Shown: positions 51,626-61,154 of the stretch, piece by piece
Numbering within the stretch: position 1 is the first letter of the stretch
How the letters are laid out: the number at the start of each line of letters is the position of its first letter
Origin: Paracoccaceae bacterium
Lineage (GTDB): Bacteria; Pseudomonadota; Alphaproteobacteria; Rhodobacterales; Rhodobacteraceae
Direction: 5' to 3'
Length of the DNA: 64,000 bases
NCBI GenBank assembly: GCA_021775315.1
Contig: JAJFIC010000032.1
Coordinates: 1 to 64,000, forward strand
Notes under the pieces: generated by a model
What the model saw: the letters and a program-made list of their open reading frames with translations, nothing else
The model's database searches: none
What the model was told of the DNA's origin: nothing
Program-made: the position numbers and the translations under genes

Positions 51626-53161
51626 CACCGATCTCCTGACAATAGCGCCATGTAATCGCCTGGGGATGTGACCGCGACATGGGCCTTGGGCAGGTATGGA
51701 TAAACCGTCATATCCAGACGTGGAGGCCGGCGTTCAATCCGGCACAAAACCAGATGCTTCACCGCGTCCACTGCCCGACAGTTGATTGCGCAGCAATCAA
51801 TGAGAGGAGAAGCCAATGGTGCCGCGTTCAAGGGCGCTCTGCACTCCGGCCTCCACGTCCGCGATCCGGAATGTTTCGAGCAGTCGCAGAACCTGAACGA
51901 ACTCGCGCTTGCCCTTTTTACCCATGCGGGCCTCCATAAGTCGACGCAGGACGATGAAGGCTTCCGGCAGGGTCCAGTCAGGCAGCGGTGCGGCCTGATC
52001 AAGCGCGTTGGTCTTCCGTTCGATCAGCGCCAGATAATGAAGTGGATCAAAGACGTAATTCTCCTTCTCCCAGGATCGGACATGGCGGGCAATGACTTCA
52101 GTCCCGCAGGCAATCACAACCTCATGCACATAGCCCCGCACCAGAACCTCCTGATGACCGTAGGCAGTCGGAACCGAATAATCGTTGCTGCGGTAACGCA
52201 CGAGAGACAGCGAACTCACACGAACAGATTGCTTGTCGCAGGCGTCATAAGGAACAGCTGGCAAGGGTTGGAGCCGCTCCGCATCAGCCTCAAACCGCTC
52301 GCCAATGGTGCCTTTCTGACCGCGCAGCTTGTCTTTCATCCGCCTGCGGCATTGTTCAGCCAGATGGGCGTTGAGATCATCAAAGCTGGCAAACCGGGGC
52401 TTGGGCACCATGAAGTTGCGGCGTGTGTATCCCACCATCCCTTCGACCTTGCCCTTATCATTCCCTTTGCCGGGGCGGCCAAAGCGATCCTCAAACAGAT
52501 AATGAGATACCAGTTCGGAGAACACACGGGTTCGTTTGCGCTTTCCATCCCCCAGAATGCGGGCCACGGCAATCCGCGTGTTATCGTAGAGGATCGACAC
52601 AGGCACACCACCGAAGAAGGCGAACGCCGCAACATGCGCATCACAAAACGCTTCAGTTGTCTCGGCCGGATACGCCTTCAAAAAACACGCATCTGAATGC
52701 GGTAGGTCCATTACCAGAAAGTGGATCTTGCGCTCAACACCCCCGATGACGGCAAGCGCCTCACCAAAATCTGCCTGAGCATGACCCGGAGGATGCGACA
52801 GGGGCACAAACATCTCCCGCTGACGCTGCCTGGCCGCGAAGATGTAATCCTTCACGATCGTGATGCCGCCCGTAAAATGATCCTCATCACGCAACCGTTC
52901 AAAAATGCGCTTTGACGTATGCCGCTGCTTCTTTGGAACCAGCTTATCTGCTTCAAGAATCTGATCGATAATCCCGGTAAAGCCATCCAGCTTCGGACGT
53001 CTGATCTCCTTGTCGCGCCGATAACCTGGCGGGATCGAAAACATCAGCATCTTCTCAACAGTGCGCCGGTTGATCCCGAAAATACGCGCCGCTTCTCGAC
53101 GGCTCATGCCGTCAACAAGAACAGCGTGACGAACGCGCCCATACAAATCCACGTGTTTCAA
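51625..53161 (-). pseudogene. istA: IS21-type transposase istA, frameshifted near the C-terminus
   Basis: The main frame (TTG 53161 to TGA 51797) gives 454 residues. An N-terminal HTH (SRREAARIFGINRRTVEKML) is followed by a DDE rve core: HAQADFGEAL (first Asp), VSILYDNTRIAV (second Asp) and GKVEGMVGYTRRNF (Glu), then the Mu-type SLVRYRSNDYSVPTAYG domain. The frame ends GTIGFSSH, but the expected continuation DAVKHLVLCRIERRPPRLDMTVYPYLP is present 40 bases further in another frame and runs to the stop at 51625. The 40-base interruption (51769-51808) contains the palindrome TTGATTGCGCAGCAATCAA. The catalytic part is complete, but with istB cut the element cannot be autonomous. Confidence 0.85.
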
Positions 53162-53222
53162 TCCCGCCCTCCGCCAAAACGAAGAGCCTATCAGGATGGG
53201 CTAATCAGCCCACCTGCGACAA

Positions 53223-53837
53223 GACAATCTCGCCGCTCACGTGGTGCAGTATTCCACCGGCGTTCTCATTGGGTCCAGCGAAGATGTGGCCCATGAGGTT
53301 CAAGAGAAAACCGCGTCTCTTGGCATTTGTCTGCTCAATAAAAAGCTGATCAAACTGAAATACGAAGTGTTCTATCGAGAGTATTTTGGGTTCTTTTGTG
53401 GGCCGTCGCATCCCTTGTTCGGAAAACGACGCCTGCGCCTGCGTGATCTACGCGAATATTCAGCGGTTAGTTTCGGGACGGACAGTTTGCAGGACTCTTT
53501 GCGTCCGGTCGCGCAGTTTCGCCTGAAGCATCGTCTCGACCATAACATTATCGGCCACTCAACCCACCTGGAAGAGGTTCGCAGAATGATAATCTGTGGT
53601 CTTGGCATTGGCCCGTTGCCCATCCACGCGGTCGCGCGCGATGTCCGTGACGGCATTCTTTGGCGCCTGCCGCCGTACAAAAAAACACCACTGGTCGACA
53701 TCCATCTGGTGACCAACCCCACCAAACGTCAGAGCCGGGCAGAGATCAAGTTTGTAGCGGCGTTAAAAGGTGAACTGGCCAAAATTCCATTCTCAGACCG
53801 AATTTATTCTGAACTGGTGGATGCGCCAGCTTCCTGA
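53223..53837 (+). pseudogene. LysR-type regulator, effector domain only, truncated by the IS
   Basis: The open frame begins in the IS end (after a stop at 53202-53204) and runs for about 205 codons to 53837. It is the C-terminal ligand-binding domain of a LysR-type regulator: LGICLLNKKLIKLKYEVFYREYFGFFCGPSHPLFGKRRLRLRDLREYSAVSFGTDSL, then RMIICGLGIGPLPIHAV and DGILWRLPPYKKTPLVDIHLVTNPTKRQS. The DNA-binding winged HTH and linker helix (about 90 residues plus part of the effector domain) are missing; the IS sits where they should be. If expressed it could not bind DNA. Confidence 0.8.
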
Positions 53838-53935: not shown

Positions 53936-55204
53936 TTACACAACCCGTCGGCAGCTGATGCCCAGACCCTCTAGAAAGCCCATGAACGCATCCATGTTTT
54001 CCAGGGTCGATTGGTCGACATACAGGTTCAGGCTTATGCCGTTTCGATAGGGCACGAAAACGCAGGTATTTGCGCCGGGGATATACGAGCCGCAGTAAAT
54101 TGACCTACCGAATACTTTGCCCAAAACGCCACCCGCCACGTGTGGTGGCAGCAATGACAGCACAAAGTCATAGGGGACATAGTTAAAAAAACGCGGGCCA
54201 TATAAGAACGGAAATACAGAATGCAGTTTGCGATGGACACCCAGAATGGAATTGTAAAACGCCTGGCTGTAAATTTCCTTTGTGTCTTCGCGACTTAGCA
54301 CGTCTTCAACGATCTGAACCTGGGTCGCGTAATCTGTTGCGGAACGGATCTGTTCCACTTGCATGCGCAGATTAAGGGCTGGATCTTCCAAGGTGGTTTT
54401 CGTGTCGGGAAGCGTTGTGTAGCTGATGAGTTGCTTTTTTTTGGTGGTCCGGTTGGGCAGAGTATCGGCCAATCGAAGCCCGAAAAGCGGCAGGGAAAAT
54501 AGAATACTGCGTTGCCGAACGCCGTGCATCAGGGCCAATTTCTTCACGCTTTTTCGATCCAGCTCGATCACCACGCAACTGCTATTTCGCGTGTCTTTCC
54601 GGCTAAAAAAGGAGGCCGCAAGAAGGACAGGTGCCAAGATAATCCCAGCAATTGTGATGGCGCTTTTCCCCAGTATTCCCAGCTTTGCAGAAGCCTGATC
54701 TGCATTATGCACGCTCTGGCGCAGCCGCATAACGCGCGCGCTTTCCGATCCCTCCATCAAAGCATGCGACGAGCTAAACACACAAAGCGATTTGGGCTCA
54801 CCGACTTTGGGATTAACAAGCGTATAGCAACAGGCCCGGAAATTTGGCAGGTCAGGATCAGAATAAACCGCCTGATTTTCAGAGATGAACGCGGCGAGGG
54901 ATTTATCCAGATCGTCCGTCAGTGCGTAGGTGCAAATCGACTTTGGATCGATGTCAACCACCACGTGTCGACCGCCCTTGCCGTCTGCTTTGCAATGCAA
55001 TTGCGGTGCGAGTTTCATAAAAAAACCCGCAATGTCATGCAGATCTTTTTCGCTTAACGCGACATCGCTTTCAGCCGCCAGATAGACCGTATTTCTGGCC
55101 TTGTTCAAATACCATTGCAGGTCGCTAAAAGGGAATTGTTTCGCCACCCCAAGACCAACCTTTGCCGGGTCGGGCAGTGCTTTTTCCCAATCGATCTTAA
55201 GCAC
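53936..55204 (-). CDS. WS/DGAT-like acyltransferase (condensation-fold)
   Basis: 422 residues, GTG start behind GAGGAAT. The fold pattern is that of CoA-dependent acyltransferases/wax ester synthases. An N-terminal half begins FPFSDLQWYLNKARNTVYLAAES. The active-site segment is SSSHALMEGSES (residues 144-155), where the canonical HHxxxDG is S146-H147-A-L-M-E151-G152. The second, catalytic His and the Gly remain. A membrane-like segment (about 174-199) follows. The C-terminal half ends CGSYIPGANTCVFVPYRNGISLNLYVDQSTLENMDAFMGFLEGLGI, the usual end of WS/DGAT-type domains. It could make an ester or amide lipid. It lies 127 bases downstream of an RND/MMPL-type exporter on the same strand, reminiscent of PapA-MmpL pairs in mycobacteria. 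Confidence 0.65.
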   Translation of the reverse strand: MLKIDWEKALPDPAKVGLGVAKQFPFSDLQWYLNKARNTVYLAAESDVALSEKDLHDIAGFFMKLAPQLHCKADGKGGRHVVVDIDPKSICTYALTDDLDKSLAAFISENQAVYSDPDLPNFRACCYTLVNPKVGEPKSLCVFSSSHALMEGSESARVMRLRQSVHNADQASAKLGILGKSAITIAGIILAPVLLAASFFSRKDTRNSSCVVIELDRKSVKKLALMHGVRQRSILFSLPLFGLRLADTLPNRTTKKKQLISYTTLPDTKTTLEDPALNLRMQVEQIRSATDYATQVQIVEDVLSREDTKEIYSQAFYNSILGVHRKLHSVFPFLYGPRFFNYVPYDFVLSLLPPHVAGGVLGKVFGRSIYCGSYIPGANTCVFVPYRNGISLNLYVDQSTLENMDAFMGFLEGLGISCRRVV

Positions 55205-55331
55205 GGCAATTCCTCGGTTAAGTCACCATTGTAACCCCATGGCCTGCGGGCTTGGTTACATAGCACAGATGGTCCAAAGCTCAATCTGTTTTCTGGTCGT
55301 CAGAAGGGTTTTGCGATCACAAAGTTTCAAC

Positions 55332-57470
55332 TCATCTTGTTCGCACGCCGACTGCGCCCCAGCAAAGAAGGCTGGGAAAGAGGAATAGATCGGCAACCAC
55401 GGCCAATGCAATGGCGGCGGCTGTCAACTGGCCGAAAATTGACACGCTTGGCAGCAGACTGAACGCGGTCACTAACATGCCTGCTATGAGCACAAAACTG
55501 GTTGTCAGAATGGGTGCCGTTGTGGCGCGCAACGCCACCTCTATCGCGTTGCGATCAATCGCGGCATCCGGTTTTCGGGCCAGTCGAATGCGGTTCATCA
55601 GGTGGATCGAGTCATCAACGGCAATGCCAAATGCAATCGTAAAAGCGATGGCGCTGATCATGGTCAAGAGGTGATCCATCGCGACCAGCCAAGCCTCAAC
55701 CACAAGAATAGGAATGAGGTTCGGAACAAGGGACAAAACGGCAACCCGGACGGACCTTAACAGCCAAGCCGCCAAGACCGTTACCAAGGCCACGGCGACA
55801 TAAAACGCAATGCGCAGTTGGTGCACAATAATTGGCAGCTCAACACTCGCCATCAGTGAATAACCGGCAATCTTGGCGTCATGGATGCCAGCATTTTCCA
55901 GATTGTCGTAGGCTTGTTGGGTAGAGATCAGAATGTCAGCCGAACTCCTGTTCAGCTGCCCGATCAAAGGCAGTGCAAAGGCACGACCGTCTTTGCTTTC
56001 GAACCGGTTGAGATTTGCACTTTCGCCCTCGCGATCAGTAAGCGTCGGGGCAAGACCTGCGCCAATTCCAAACAATGTGTTTCCGGCGCGCTCAAGCATT
56101 TTGAGGTCATCCTCAGAAATCCCTTTCTCGTTTTCAGCAGATTTCAGGATCACATAGCTAATGTCGCTGCCGGGAAGAACGGCGTTCAGTTCTGCAAGCG
56201 TTGCCTGAAAACCTCCGGTTTGGGGTATGTGATCCATCGGGCGATAGCCGATCACGGTTTGGGTTTGAACGCCCACTAATACCGCCAGAGCGATGATCGC
56301 CGTTAGCGCAACACTACGGGACCGGTTCAGAAGTCCCACGGCTATGCCCGTCAAAAATCGGAAGCCAAACGGGCGTGCCTGCGTCAATTGTTTGTCTTTG
56401 TAGATAAGCAGAATGGCCGGCGGCAGGGTTATGAACACCGACAGCGTCGTCAATGCCATTGCGATAGGTCCGATAATCGCCACGTTGTTAAGCGTGGGCG
56501 AGCCGACAAATAACAGGCAAGAAAACGCAAGCGCTGTCGTTAGGGCTGCGAGTATCACAGCTGGCATGGTTTCACGCAAACCGCGGGTGATCGCAACTTT
56601 GATGTCGCTTTCGTTTGCGTGGTTCACAACGGAATAAAACACATGCACGCTGTCTGCGACCCCAAGAACCAAGATCAGGGTCGGCACGATCGCCATGAAT
56701 GGGTTGAAGGGCAGACCCAGAATGGCCATGGCACCGATGGTCCATCCAAGGCCAACCAGACTTGGTATCGAACATAAAACAGCAGCGCGCCAGGATCGAA
56801 ACAGCGTCATTGCGATGAATATGCAGAAAATTACGGCCAATGGCGTGATAAATATCTGATCAGAAACAAGCGCGTCGCTGATTTCCCGATGCAGTGCGGC
56901 AAGGCCGACCGGGTGGATAGCTAAGGCCGGGCTGGCTGCTGTTATTTCTTGCTGCAAATTGGCCAAGCGTAAATCGGCGGGCACCGACAAGTCCGGGATA
57001 ACGGTCAGCAAAGCCGCGTTTCTGTCTTGCGAAAGCAGAAATGGCGCAAGCGGCGACGCCTTAAGAAGCCCATCAAGCCTGTCGGTCGGCGAAAGCACCG
57101 CAATGTCGCTGCGCGAAAGATAGCTTCGGCTTTTTCTGTCTGGATCCGGAAGGTTAAAGACACTGACAACGGCCTTCACGCCATCGGTCAGTTGAAATCC
57201 AAGAACCAGGTCTTCAAGCGCTGCAAATGTTTCGGGGTCGCCGAAATCATCGGCCTGGACCAGAAAAATCTCGTCCTTGGATGGGGCGTCAAAGCGTTCT
57301 TCAAGCTCCTCGTGGGCCAGAAATGCATCCGACACACCCTTCATCGCCCGTGCGACGTCACCTTCTACGGTCAGATTTGTAACGGCCAGCGTGGCGGCAA
57401 CGACCGTTGCAATCCCAATTGCCAGTGCCGCAAGGGCGGGTCGCGACAAAAGAGCTTTCAGCACGCTCAC
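55332..57470 (-). CDS. RND/MMPL-superfamily exporter
   Basis: 712 residues from GTG 57470, chosen because AAGGAAAC precedes it; GTG 57503 would add 11. Two repeats of membrane bundles: one segment at the N-terminus, a large periplasmic loop, then five segments (VFCIFIAMTLF..., LPFNPFMAIVPTLILVLGVADSVHVFYSVV with the RND Asp motif). The second half mirrors this (LVPNLIPILVVEAWLVAMD, AFTIAFGIAVDDSIHLMNRI). This is the MMPL/HpnN/SecDF-like branch that moves lipids or hydrophobic compounds using proton force. No membrane-fusion protein or outer-membrane channel gene is adjacent. The acyltransferase gene follows, suggesting it exports that enzyme's product. Confidence 0.85.
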   Translation of the reverse strand: MSVLKALLSRPALAALAIGIATVVAATLAVTNLTVEGDVARAMKGVSDAFLAHEELEERFDAPSKDEIFLVQADDFGDPETFAALEDLVLGFQLTDGVKAVVSVFNLPDPDRKSRSYLSRSDIAVLSPTDRLDGLLKASPLAPFLLSQDRNAALLTVIPDLSVPADLRLANLQQEITAASPALAIHPVGLAALHREISDALVSDQIFITPLAVIFCIFIAMTLFRSWRAAVLCSIPSLVGLGWTIGAMAILGLPFNPFMAIVPTLILVLGVADSVHVFYSVVNHANESDIKVAITRGLRETMPAVILAALTTALAFSCLLFVGSPTLNNVAIIGPIAMALTTLSVFITLPPAILLIYKDKQLTQARPFGFRFLTGIAVGLLNRSRSVALTAIIALAVLVGVQTQTVIGYRPMDHIPQTGGFQATLAELNAVLPGSDISYVILKSAENEKGISEDDLKMLERAGNTLFGIGAGLAPTLTDREGESANLNRFESKDGRAFALPLIGQLNRSSADILISTQQAYDNLENAGIHDAKIAGYSLMASVELPIIVHQLRIAFYVAVALVTVLAAWLLRSVRVAVLSLVPNLIPILVVEAWLVAMDHLLTMISAIAFTIAFGIAVDDSIHLMNRIRLARKPDAAIDRNAIEVALRATTAPILTTSFVLIAGMLVTAFSLLPSVSIFGQLTAAAIALAVVADLFLFPSLLCWGAVGVRTR

Positions 57471-57503
57471 AATCTGTTTCCTTAATGAATGATATGAAGC
57501 CAC

Positions 57504-57910
57504 AAGGGTTTCAGAAGTGACATTCTGGCTTGTCGCACAGTGACACAGGCATAGCGATTTGCAAGTTATCCTAATATAGGTAGTTTTGTGGCTGGCACCG
57601 CGCTTGGTATCGAACTTTGGGTGGATAGCCTAGGGAACCTCTGAACAACGTCCCCCTTCGGCATTTCGCAGAAATGTCAGTCCCCGACCGCCCCATGGCG
57701 GGGGCTTTGCAACGTTGCATTCTATTGAAAAGGCACGCGTATCTGCAATTGTGGTTGCAGACAATCCGCCTTCACTTCGCCCCCACCCGGTCGGGGGATG
57801 ACATTTCTACGAAAAGCCTGCTTAATCAGAACTTCCCTAGATTGTTTGTGAAAGCAGAGAGCGTTAGGGACATTGGGTTGGTTTTGGGCGTGAAAACAGG
57901 AGGATTTTCT
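57504..57910. other. Intergenic region, possible IS end
   Basis: About 400 bases without a credible gene. It contains AGGGAACCTCTGAACAACG (57631-57649), which resembles insertion-sequence termini, and GC-rich hairpin sequence (CCCCGACCGCCCCATGGCGGGGG, 57676-57698). The frame open through this stretch joins the small secreted protein's frame but lacks an RBS. The promoter for the divergent exporter gene should lie near 57510-57600. Confidence 0.35.
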
Positions 57911-58189
57911 GTGCTTGGAAATTTGCGAAAATTGATCGTAGGACTGGTCTTTCTGCTGTCGACTGAAACCGCGGCAGCGGGTGTTATGGATAAAGAGCTG
58001 TCAGAAAACATTATGGCAGAAGGTGAAGTTGTCTCTGAATACACCACGGACGGGAACAAATTTAGGGTTCTGATGCGGTTCAAGCGCAGGATCTATATTT
58101 GCGAGGCAACTTGGTGGCGAGGTACAGACGCCACCGAAGCAAAAACCGAATTGTTTTGCTGGGACGACAGTTGGGTCGATAAACAGTAA
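57911..58189 (+). CDS. Small secreted protein, unknown family
   Basis: 92 residues starting at GTG 57911, selected because AGGAGG lies directly upstream and the new N-terminus is a signal peptide (LGNLRKLIVGLVFLLSTETAAAG). The mature 70 residues contain EGEVVSEYTTDGNKFRVLMRFKRRIYICEATWWRG and KTELFCWDDSW, with two cysteines that may form one disulfide. No family recognised. It lies alone between the exporter gene and a small immunity-like gene. Confidence 0.65.
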   Translation: MLGNLRKLIVGLVFLLSTETAAAGVMDKELSENIMAEGEVVSEYTTDGNKFRVLMRFKRRIYICEATWWRGTDATEAKTELFCWDDSWVDKQ

Positions 58190-58797: not shown

Positions 58798-60450
58798 TCA
58801 TTGCGTCGCGTTTTGGCGCAGTAGAAACCTCTGGATTTTGCCGCTCGGCGTTTTTGGCAACTCCTTGGTAAATTCGACAAGCCGGGGATAGGCGTGGGCC
58901 GAAAGGCGTTTTTTCACGTAAGCTTGCAGGTCTTCGGCCAATGCGTCATTCGCTTCAAAACCTTCAGCCAGAACCACGACAGCTTTGACAACTTCCGTGC
59001 GTTCTTTGTCGGGCACGCCTATCACGGCGGCCTCGGTCACTGATGGGTGTTCGATCAACGCGCTTTCGACATCAAAGGGGCCGATCCGATAGCCCGAGGA
59101 TGTGATGACATCATCGCTGCGCCCAACAAAGGTAACGCAGCCGTTTTCATCCCGCTCAACAGTGTCACCTGTGCGATAAAACCCGCCAGAAATTGATTTG
59201 GTCTGCTGGTTCAAATAGCCTTTGAACCAAAGAAGCGGCGAGTTTTCGATATCAATCGCCAGTTGCCCCGGGATATTCGGGCCGACGATGTTTCCAGCCT
59301 CGTCCAGAATTTCAATCTTAAAACCCGGCATCGCATATCCAGCCGAGCCTGCCCGAACCGGATGTTCCAGCCCGTGGTGATTGTTGACCATCATTCCGGT
59401 TTCGGTTTGGCCATAGTGGTCTTTAATCGGCGCTTTGATGTGTTCATCAAACCAGCGGATGACCTCAGGGTTCAACGGCTCGCCAGCACTGCTGACACAG
59501 CGCAATCTGCCTTTCACTTTGGCGGCTTCTTCCGGCCCGGCAGCAATCATCAGCCGGAACGCCGTCGGCGCGCCTGCGAAATTGGTGACGCCCAAACGGC
59601 GGACAAGGTCGTAGGTGCCATCCACCGAGAACGGGCTTTGCACCAGCGTCGTTGCGTGGCCTAACAGCAAAGGACCAAGAACCGCGTAATAAAGGCCATA
59701 GGCCCAACCGGGGTCCGCTATATTCCAAAACATGTCGTCGGGGCGAAGATTGATGCCTTCGACCATATAGGCGCGAAAAGATGCCAGTGCCGACAAGGGC
59801 ACCGGAACGCCTTTTGCCGGGCCTGTCGTGCCGGAAGTGGCCATCATCAACATCAGATCGTCGCCGTGTCGCATGACCGGTTCAAAATCTGAGGACTGTC
59901 TTTTCAGACCCTTGAGGAAATCAATGTCGCTTCTGTTAACCTTCGCTGCTTGTGTGGTCACGACAGCGACCGGGGGGCAGTTTTCAACCGTGCTGAGTTT
60001 GCTGCGGTTGGCTGTATCCGTGACCACAAATTTTGCCTGGCTCATCCGCACCCGATCCTGGATCGCTTTGGGTCCGAAAGCCGTAAACAAGGGTTGATAA
60101 ACAGCGCCTGCGCGAAGTGTGCCAAGAATGGTCGTAACCAGATCCGGCGTACGTGGAAGAAGACCGGCAACAATGTCCCCCGGCTTGATCCCTTGTTCTG
60201 TCAGAAAGTTGGCGAACTGTGCTGCATCATCACGCAATTGTTCAAAACTGCGGGTCTCATGCTGGACATCCAAATCAATCCAATCCAGCGCCTTCGTGTT
60301 ATTTCCAACATATCTGTCACAGCATTCGACACAGGCGTTGATGCCTTTCGCGAAGTCGCCTGTGAACGCCCCGGCCGCTTTGTCCAGTTGGAAATCGTTC
60401 AAAGCCTGAACATAAGAGGGCTTAAGGGGGGGCGCGATCCGATCTGACAT
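58798..60450 (-). CDS. Acyl-CoA synthetase (AMP-forming)
   Basis: 550 residues from ATG 60450. ANL superfamily: P-loop-like MMATSGTTGPAKGVPVPLSAL, the substrate pocket stretch FAGAPTAFRLM, YGQTETGMMVNNHHG (motif YGxTE), GFYRTGDTVERDENGCVTFVGRSDDVITSSGYRIGPFDVESAL and the catalytic Lys in KTPSGKIQRF. The ATP-driven enzyme forms an acyl-AMP and then the CoA ester. It resembles acetyl/propionyl- and medium-chain-type synthetases, length about 550; the chain specificity is not decided. A PaaI-type thioesterase gene lies divergent. Confidence 0.92.
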   Translation of the reverse strand: MSDRIAPPLKPSYVQALNDFQLDKAAGAFTGDFAKGINACVECCDRYVGNNTKALDWIDLDVQHETRSFEQLRDDAAQFANFLTEQGIKPGDIVAGLLPRTPDLVTTILGTLRAGAVYQPLFTAFGPKAIQDRVRMSQAKFVVTDTANRSKLSTVENCPPVAVVTTQAAKVNRSDIDFLKGLKRQSSDFEPVMRHGDDLMLMMATSGTTGPAKGVPVPLSALASFRAYMVEGINLRPDDMFWNIADPGWAYGLYYAVLGPLLLGHATTLVQSPFSVDGTYDLVRRLGVTNFAGAPTAFRLMIAAGPEEAAKVKGRLRCVSSAGEPLNPEVIRWFDEHIKAPIKDHYGQTETGMMVNNHHGLEHPVRAGSAGYAMPGFKIEILDEAGNIVGPNIPGQLAIDIENSPLLWFKGYLNQQTKSISGGFYRTGDTVERDENGCVTFVGRSDDVITSSGYRIGPFDVESALIEHPSVTEAAVIGVPDKERTEVVKAVVVLAEGFEANDALAEDLQAYVKKRLSAHAYPRLVEFTKELPKTPSGKIQRFLLRQNATQ

Positions 60451-60728
60451 GGCGAACTTTCGGTCTGAAATTGACGGTTGCGCCAGAATGAGACAATAGT
60501 CAGGACTTTGCCACATTTTTTCGTCACATCACGCCTATTGCCGAGACGGCTCCAGCGACGGTTTGGGCGCCAACCGGCTAAAATGAGCATCGCCAAAGTG
60601 GGCGCGCGATACGATCTGTTGGATGTTCCTGACGCGACCCATGTCAGATGGGCTGGCAGGGGCGCTTGCTTGTGGGTATGAAGGCCTGAAGGCCGCCCAC
60701 GCAACTATGATGAACCAAAGGAAATTCT
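60451..60728. promoter_or_regulatory. Divergent promoter region synthetase / thioesterase
   Basis: A 278-base gap with outward-facing starts on both sides. Promoters for both must lie here; no regulator site recognised. AAAGGAAATTCT before ATG 60729 is the thioesterase RBS. Confidence 0.4.
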
Positions 60729-61154
60729 ATGCAGGACATGACCGATTTTGGCAAATCCATACTTGCAACCCAACCTTTCAGCCAGTTCATTGGCGCCGAG
60801 TTGCACCAGCTATCACCCGGTTCCGCTGAATTGCATTTGCCGATCACGGATACACTAAAACAGCAACATGGCTTTGCTCACGGCGGTGTCGTCAGTTATT
60901 TGGCCGACAACGCGCTGACCTTTGCGGGCGGGGCTGGCATGGGCGTGCCGGTTGTCACCTCGGAAATGAAGATCAACTATATCCGTCCGGTTATTGGTGA
61001 AAGATTGATTGCCCGCGCCAAGGTCCTGAGCCTTGGGAAAACACAGGCGGTTGTGCGCTGTGATGTGTTTGTGAAGGACGGTGAGAAGGAAAAACTATGC
61101 GCGGCGGCGCAGGGCACAATTACGGCTTTGCCGGACAAGAAACCTGATATTTGA
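60729..61154 (+). CDS. PaaI-type hotdog thioesterase
   Basis: 141 residues. Hotdog fold with the PaaI active-site loop QQHGFAHGGVVSYLADNALTFAGG: the HGG motif with the catalytic Asp/Asn region. VTSEMKINYIRPVIGERLIARAKVLSLGKTQAVVRCDVFV is the core sheet. The enzyme hydrolyses acyl- or aryl-CoA. Divergent from the acyl-CoA synthetase, so the two may balance the same CoA pool. Confidence 0.9.
   Translation: MQDMTDFGKSILATQPFSQFIGAELHQLSPGSAELHLPITDTLKQQHGFAHGGVVSYLADNALTFAGGAGMGVPVVTSEMKINYIRPVIGERLIARAKVLSLGKTQAVVRCDVFVKDGEKEKLCAAAQGTITALPDKKPDI

Follow-up and report, generated by a model that had tools for sequence, protein, structure and literature searches.

PapA acyltransferases belong to the condensation superfamily. 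In mycobacteria, PapA2 and PapA1 make the lipid that is moved by MmpL8, and PapA3 makes that of MmpL10, according to the account in PMC6463170. Among the RND lipid pumps of Gram-negative bacteria, the hopanoid pump HpnN and the monoterpene pump AmeD are described as HAE3 members (PMC6394551). Periplasmic and outer-membrane partners are described for AmeD (PMC6394551) and for the sterol pump BstA (PMC10942540), and HpnN reportedly functions without them (PMC6394551). Lifting of the lipid from the inner membrane by the pump is reported for HpnN (PMC6394551) and MmpL (PMC6463170), and is proposed for BstA (PMC10942540). Here we analysed a 64,000-nucleotide stretch of DNA from a Paracoccaceae bacterium (contig JAJFIC010000032.1, positions 1 to 64,000; the window), in which the gene of an MMPL/RND exporter is followed by the gene of a 422-residue acyltransferase-like protein, called AT below. 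The pairing of the two genes is real and little known, and it is conserved only in part: AT and the exporter system co-occur in genomes, though they are seldom found side by side. In the literature covered (titles and abstract openings, with few subscription journals), a pairing of AT with an exporter in alphaproteobacteria is not described. The features of the unit are as follows.

53936..55204, minus strand: AT, putative divergent WS/DGAT-condensation-like acyltransferase, 422 aa, GTG start (list of open reading frames, remote homology and relatives)
54143..54163, minus strand: V-L-S-L-L-P-P, AT residues 348–354, aligned to the SNVPGP block in the C-terminal half of WS/DGAT
54605..54661, minus strand: hydrophobic segment of AT, residues 182–200, Kyte-Doolittle mean 2.35, possible membrane contact
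54749..54769, minus strand: altered active-site motif S-H-A-L-M-E-G, AT residues 146–152, aligned to HHxxxDG of WS/DGAT
55205..55331, minus strand: intergenic gap of 127 bp between exporter and AT, with no minus-strand terminator-like site
55332..57503, minus strand: MMPL/RND exporter, HAE3-like, 723 aa, or 712 aa from 57470 (PF03176, TIGR00921 and tree)

Both open reading frames (ORFs) are present and co-directional, with 127 bp between them, as stated in the preliminary description of this DNA. The exporter was called an RND/MMPL-type protein there, and this assignment is borne out. The Pfam model MMPL (PF03176) matches it twice along its length, with E = 1e-22 and a score of 81 bits (cut-off 20.5), in agreement with the two MMPL repeats expected of an MMPL/RND exporter. 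The best NCBIfam models are HAE3 (TIGR00921, E = 5e-30), ActII, HpnN and then BstA, all of them below the model cut-offs. In the case of the hopanoid transporter model HpnN (TIGR03480), 61.7 bits were obtained against a cut-off of 751.85. The exporter length of 712 residues given previously needs a qualification. The ORF itself opens at 57503 (723 aa), and the 712-aa form starts from the valine codon at 57470. By eye, the 712-aa start matches the start of the closest relative (genome G489) better, and the true length is probably 712 aa.

The motif S-H-A-L-M-E-G in place of HHxxxDG, noted previously, was found at residues 146–152 of AT, with His147 and Glu151. Six members of the AT family were found, including that of the window, and their lengths are 396–430 aa. 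The identity of the window AT to its relatives, computed for three of them, is 19–28%. Nevertheless, His147, Glu151 and Gly152 are invariant in all six members. HHxxxDG is altered in every member, and the family motif is S/T/P-H-x-x-x-E-G, in which the second His and the Gly of HHxxxDG are retained. Because these three residues are invariant, the altered motif is a signature of the family and not the decay of one gene. In addition, Ser350, Pro353 and Pro354 are invariant in all five full-length members. A hydrophobic stretch follows the motif in every member, and its maximum is located at about the same place in the other five sequences.

A search with hidden Markov models of the WS/DGAT, PapA and condensation families had been proposed as a check, and no model matches AT. 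In Pfam and NCBIfam, the matches of the window AT are to unrelated families and no better than chance (E ≥ 0.056), and at E ≤ 1 none of those in NCBIfam is to a WS/DGAT or condensation model. None of the four AT members scanned has a WS/DGAT or condensation match in Pfam at E ≤ 10; the only matches there are HTH_1 (E = 0.1) and NusG_II (E = 0.25). Searches with the single AT sequence gave no match among PDB sequences, plasmids or genome contigs. The two-row AT profile detected more family members, and still no PDB sequence.

Profile comparison was performed by hhalign between the six AT sequences and 11 alphaproteobacterial WS/DGATs, taken from 12 loci (L024–L035), of which one gave no sequence with the motif and was left out. 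The score is 28.8 over 276 colinear columns covering both halves. Column shuffling of the comparison (150 times) gave a mean score of 16.2 and a maximum of 28.1 over at most 102 columns, so that no shuffle reached 28.8, and the reversed alignment scored 15.4. In the alignment, His147 is placed on the second His of HHxxxDG, and V-L-S-L-L-P-P of AT is placed on V-I-S-N-V-P-G-P of WS/DGAT. An AlphaFold model of AT was calculated from two sequences (pLDDT 42, pTM 0.34; pLDDT 39 from the single sequence). In the Foldseek search with this poor model, ranks 1–15 are all condensation, condensation-like or WS/DGAT proteins, and the Marinobacter WS/DGAT 6chj is matched with E = 4e-3 and a probability of 0.72. 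VIA-align gave 50 rows, many of them BAHD, condensation or WS/DGAT enzymes, interspersed with small ferredoxin-like folds and others.

Several of these values count against the assignment. The hhalign probability is low (3.8%; 1.8% with a score of 25.8 when four AT sequences were used), and the structural matches come from a poor model (pLDDT 42). The Foldseek matches are weak, with a best E of 2.5e-3, none at 0.001 or below, and TM-scores near 0.2. The best Z of VIA-align is 7.0, under 8. Taken together, the profile and model comparisons suggest that AT is probably a remote member of the WS/DGAT-condensation superfamily. It is not a WS/DGAT proper on sequence criteria. The acyltransferase fold claimed previously thus gains indirect support from the profile comparison and Foldseek, and none from a family model. 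With bacterial WS/DGAT (PF03007/TIGR02946, e.g. 6chj), AT shares the colinear profile, the second His, the SNVPGP-like block and the weak structural match. It differs in having no family-model match, in having S/T/P-H-x-x-x-E-G instead of HHxxxDG, and in length (396–430 aa, against 467–536 aa for the 11 WS/DGATs used).

The regular neighbour of the exporter is a small secreted two-cysteine protein, named LIP here. The ten seeds of the LIP model are 151–172 aa in length, and the two cysteines are invariant in all of them. No Pfam match at E ≤ 1 was obtained for any of five LIP members, no NCBIfam match for either of two, and no PDB sequence at E < 0.1. The designation 'lipocalin-like' was considered; it is a mere impression from a GxWxGxG pattern and is not claimed. 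Twenty exporter loci were compared: that of the window, 13 more from the window-pump search (including the second copy of the own genome), those of G009 and G007 from another window-pump search, those of G630 and the second pump of G536 from the MMPL family model, and those of G1133 and G480 through LIP. The 19 loci other than the window therefore derive from window-pump searches (15), the MMPL family model (two) and LIP (two). Two candidates per genome were scored in the pump search, so that the exporter counts are minimum numbers. In G630, for example, the window-pump search missed the exporter that is linked to LIP. In 18 of these 20 loci, the next gene downstream of the exporter, in the same orientation, encodes LIP. 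The two exceptions are the window and the long-branched second pump of G536. Apart from the window and a locus of G067, LIP is downstream in all 15 loci brought in by window-pump searches. The G067 locus (L018) was left out of the 20 because its pump is cut by a contig end; it shows a weak LIP-like match (E = 2e-7) upstream of the pump rather than downstream.

The LIP model search gave no match in the gap between exporter and AT, nor anywhere else in the 64-kb window. In the exporter tree, the window pump is located inside the LIP-bearing clade, beside those of G489 (61% identity) and G456 (56% identity). As the window pump nests in this clade, the simplest reading is that LIP was lost from the window and that AT now stands where it was.

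AT itself is rare. It was found in 2 of 101 relatives (own genome included), in the own genome alone among 385 of the class, and in at least 5 of 394 genomes of the family by the two-row profile (the own genome G000, G021, G536, G630 and G766). In a profile search of the phylum (398 genomes), at least the own genome and G766 were positive. In the family- and phylum-wide searches up to four candidates per genome were scored, and these counts are lower bounds. AT is present in 1 of the 10 genomes of the own genus, with none found in the nine others, and in 2 of the 13 genomes of the genus of G766, where G1133 is the additional member. A match in G805 (67 residues, E = 5e-4, inside an 807-aa frame) was dropped as a doubtful relative. 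All six AT genomes (the own genome, G021, G536, G630, G766 and G1133) are labelled as one family. G021 corresponds to a Phaeovulum metagenome-assembled genome, and NCBI places Phaeovulum in Rhodobacterales, Paracoccaceae.

All six AT genomes have LIP, whereas it was detected in 2 of 74 genomes of the family taken as background (Fisher test, 9e-8). The background genomes were every fourth genome from G456 to G752, a hand-chosen set of the same family, and their AT-free status was taken from the family-wide AT profile search, which is assumed to cover them. G536 fell in the background row and was counted instead as an AT genome. If the own genome is omitted along with G1133, whose genus is also represented by G766, the ratio is 4/4 against 2/74 (1e-5), and when only G536 and G630 are used, which supplied no LIP seeds, it is 2/2 against 1/73 (1e-3). 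Five of the six AT genomes have an intact exporter next to LIP. Four of these, G021, G766, G1133 and G630, have a pump–LIP pair. In the own genome, a second pump–LIP pair is located on another contig (L075, 7399-10178), upstream of motB-like and flagellar-like genes. Since the own genome is counted through this second pair beside a motB-like gene, it is weak evidence for the link between AT and LIP. By eye, a motB-like gene follows the pump–LIP pair in G009 as well.

In the remaining AT genome, G536, a truncated AT, two colinear pump fragments and LIP (turned round) lie within about 2 kb. The fragments correspond to about residues 246–332 and 651–710 of the G489 pump, with phmmer E values of 8.5e-12 and 2.2e-6 and sub-threshold Pfam matches to SSD and MMPL (E = 0.039 and 0.0085). 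The tblastn run for these fragments was performed without the low-complexity filter and composition correction. We read G536 as a second, decayed case of AT–pump adjacency, judging from these alignments. The flanks of the six AT loci contain exporter sequence only in the window (intact) and G536 (remnants); in the case of G1133, the flanks cover about 1.5 kb on each side. The proposal that the MMPL and AT genes are always adjacent was therefore rejected, as the flanks covered show no exporter sequence at four of the six AT loci. Conserved adjacency in other genomes, which had been suggested as a check of the unit, amounts to one intact and one decayed case among the six.

At some sister exporter loci, lipid-related genes are located beside the pump. 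In G502, a polyketide synthase (PKS) with the domain order KS-AT-DH-ER-KR-ACP-aminotransferase ends at the pump start (L071, 10329-19898; L052, 6925-9551). This PKS is of the highly reducing kind, with a class-III aminotransferase and a C-terminal part that matches Shikimate_DH, and it ends at the MMPL start codon. In G766 (L054, 8132-10545), a gene pair encoding an oxoamine synthase and a second acyltransferase-like protein (AT2) is divergent from MMPL–LIP, and close homologues of both genes lie beside MMPL–LIP in G1133 (L069, 11297-13605). The oxoamine synthase is of the BioF/serine palmitoyltransferase type, below the cut-offs of those models. AT2 has the motif D-H-A-I-A-D-G, and that of G766 matches the WS/DGAT model TIGR02946 with E = 5e-7 (28.9 bits, cut-off 310). 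The AT2 profile of G766 and G1133 scores 32.4 against the AT profile over 81 columns (at most 22.9 in 60 shuffles), and 25.8 against WS/DGAT, just above the shuffle maximum of 24.3. In G489, an OMPP1/FadL/TodX-family outer-membrane protein follows LIP, and a homologue is present in G456. A feature shared by these loci is an RND pump with genes for the building or transport of acyl chains next to it. At several other pump–LIP loci no such acyl-chain gene was recognised.

Our preferred reading, held with modest confidence, is that the exporter and AT belong to one hitherto undescribed module for the synthesis and export of a lipid in Rhodobacterales-type alphaproteobacteria. We infer its catalysis, substrates, transport direction and outer-membrane destination as follows. 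AT would most likely be located at the inner face of the inner membrane. It would keep the catalytic second histidine (His147), with Glu where WS/DGAT has Asp, and would move an acyl chain from acyl-coenzyme A or acyl-acyl carrier protein to a lipid alcohol or amine. Because of the fold and the invariant His, the product may be an ester or an amide. Then the pump would take up the product from the inner membrane and pass it outward, and LIP would carry it across the periplasm toward the outer membrane. The window unit may work without a LIP of its own, or may borrow the second LIP of the genome. The synthesis-and-export unit of the preliminary description is thus strengthened by the remote fold, the AT–LIP co-occurrence and G536, and weakened in that adjacency is rare and the standing partner of the pump is LIP.

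A wider form of this reading is plausible, though we put it somewhat short of probable. The MMPL–LIP module may swap its biosynthetic partner by lineage, as a Gram-negative counterpart of the Pks–PapA–MmpL logic for surface lipids or aminolipids, with LIP as the periplasmic carrier. The partners would tentatively be the new AT family in the window and G536, oxoamine synthase with AT2 in G766 and G1133, and the PKS in G502. The analogy with PapA–MmpL drawn previously is sound as a comparison and not as membership, and conserved adjacency was not found. In both cases an acyltransferase-like protein is associated with an MMPL-family RND pump. The present system differs in its Gram-negative envelope and in having LIP as the regular partner of the pump, and no orthology is claimed for the likeness. 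In the case of HpnN, AmeD and BstA, the likeness lies in the best NCBIfam models of the window pump (HAE3, HpnN and BstA, all below cut-off), and AmeD and BstA likewise have partners beyond the inner membrane. The differences are LIP as a partner, with no family match in the members scanned, and the acyl-chain enzymes that adjoin the pump in some relatives.

Besides the low fold scores given above, the following observations weigh against the module. Only the window has AT next to an intact exporter; in G021, G766, G630 and G1133 the two lie on different contigs. In the flanks read, no homologue of AT accompanies most exporter–LIP pairs. LIP, regular elsewhere, is missing from the window, where AT occupies its position, and without LIP the window exporter may be impaired. 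The LIP-bearing pumps of G000 and G630 are on other branches of the exporter tree than the window pump, and AT presence is unclustered on the pump tree (5 changes, against a shuffled mean of 5.4). The ratio of 6/6 rests on few genomes, three of which supplied seeds of the LIP model. Of the 18 LIP genes beside pumps, 10 are model seeds, and two of the 18 loci (G1133 and G480) were found through LIP.

AT might instead be a chance neighbour, namely an accessory single gene that landed by the exporter in a rearranged stretch and replaced LIP, with a function unrelated to the pump. The four AT loci whose flanks are free of exporter sequence and the nine genomes of the genus in which AT was not found are in favour of this explanation. 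Moreover, an IS21 gene and a truncated LysR gene abut AT, and the G+C content of AT (0.509; window, 0.554) is the lowest among seven measured coding stretches, which is in keeping with a recent arrival. Against it stand the presence of LIP, the mark of the exporter system, in six of six AT genomes against 2 of 74, and G536, where AT, exporter fragments and LIP lie together. We regard this explanation as unlikely.

Detoxifying efflux is a less probable explanation, and one we would not expect to hold: the pump would expel toxic hydrophobic compounds like AmeD of Castellaniella, and AT would acylate them beforehand. The OMPP1/FadL/TodX-family protein after LIP in G489, and by homology in G456, would suit such a role. 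The lipid-building enzymes (PKS and oxoamine synthase) at some sister loci speak against it, and no AmeABC-type set was seen by eye in the part of the ORF lists that was scanned. Marginally less probable still is that AT is no longer an enzyme and, with S-H-x-x-x-E-G, binds acyl chains or regulates the pump. The first His and the Asp of the motif are replaced, and no family model recognises the protein. The second His, Glu and Gly are, however, invariant in six of six members in spite of the low identity, which suits a working active site. If the lipid synthesis-and-export module is correct, it would give a genomic handle on unusual alphaproteobacterial surface lipids outside the hopanoid and sterol pathways, and would bring to light an acyltransferase family and a secreted MMPL-pump partner that are both without annotation.

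The genes on both sides of the unit are as follows.

51797-53161: IS21-family transposase, 454 aa (NF033546, 287 bits against a cut-off of 160)
53241-53837: LysR fragment (Pfam)
58798-60516: AMP-binding ligase, 1.3 kb from the exporter start (Pfam)
60729-61154: 4HBT thioesterase, 3.2 kb from the exporter start (Pfam)

The mobile DNA said to adjoin the unit was thus found on the AT side. No recognisable istB is present beside the transposase gene in the ORF list (51797-53837). The LysR gene is without its DNA-binding end, and the region looks like a rearranged edge of an insertion sequence. The acyl-CoA synthetase and thioesterase mentioned previously are also present, as the ligase and the 4HBT protein. 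The further suggestion that they could feed the unit with acyl chains gained no ground, as no result links either gene to the unit; they could be chain suppliers upstream of it. In the nine other genomes of the genus, no match to the ligase was obtained at E ≤ 1e-150. Between 53000 and 59000, promoter-like sites do not exceed the number expected by chance (3 observed, 4.4 expected). Divergent from the exporter, a 171-aa ORF with no Pfam family is present at 57674-58189, and its second half reads like a signal peptide followed by a short two-cysteine protein.

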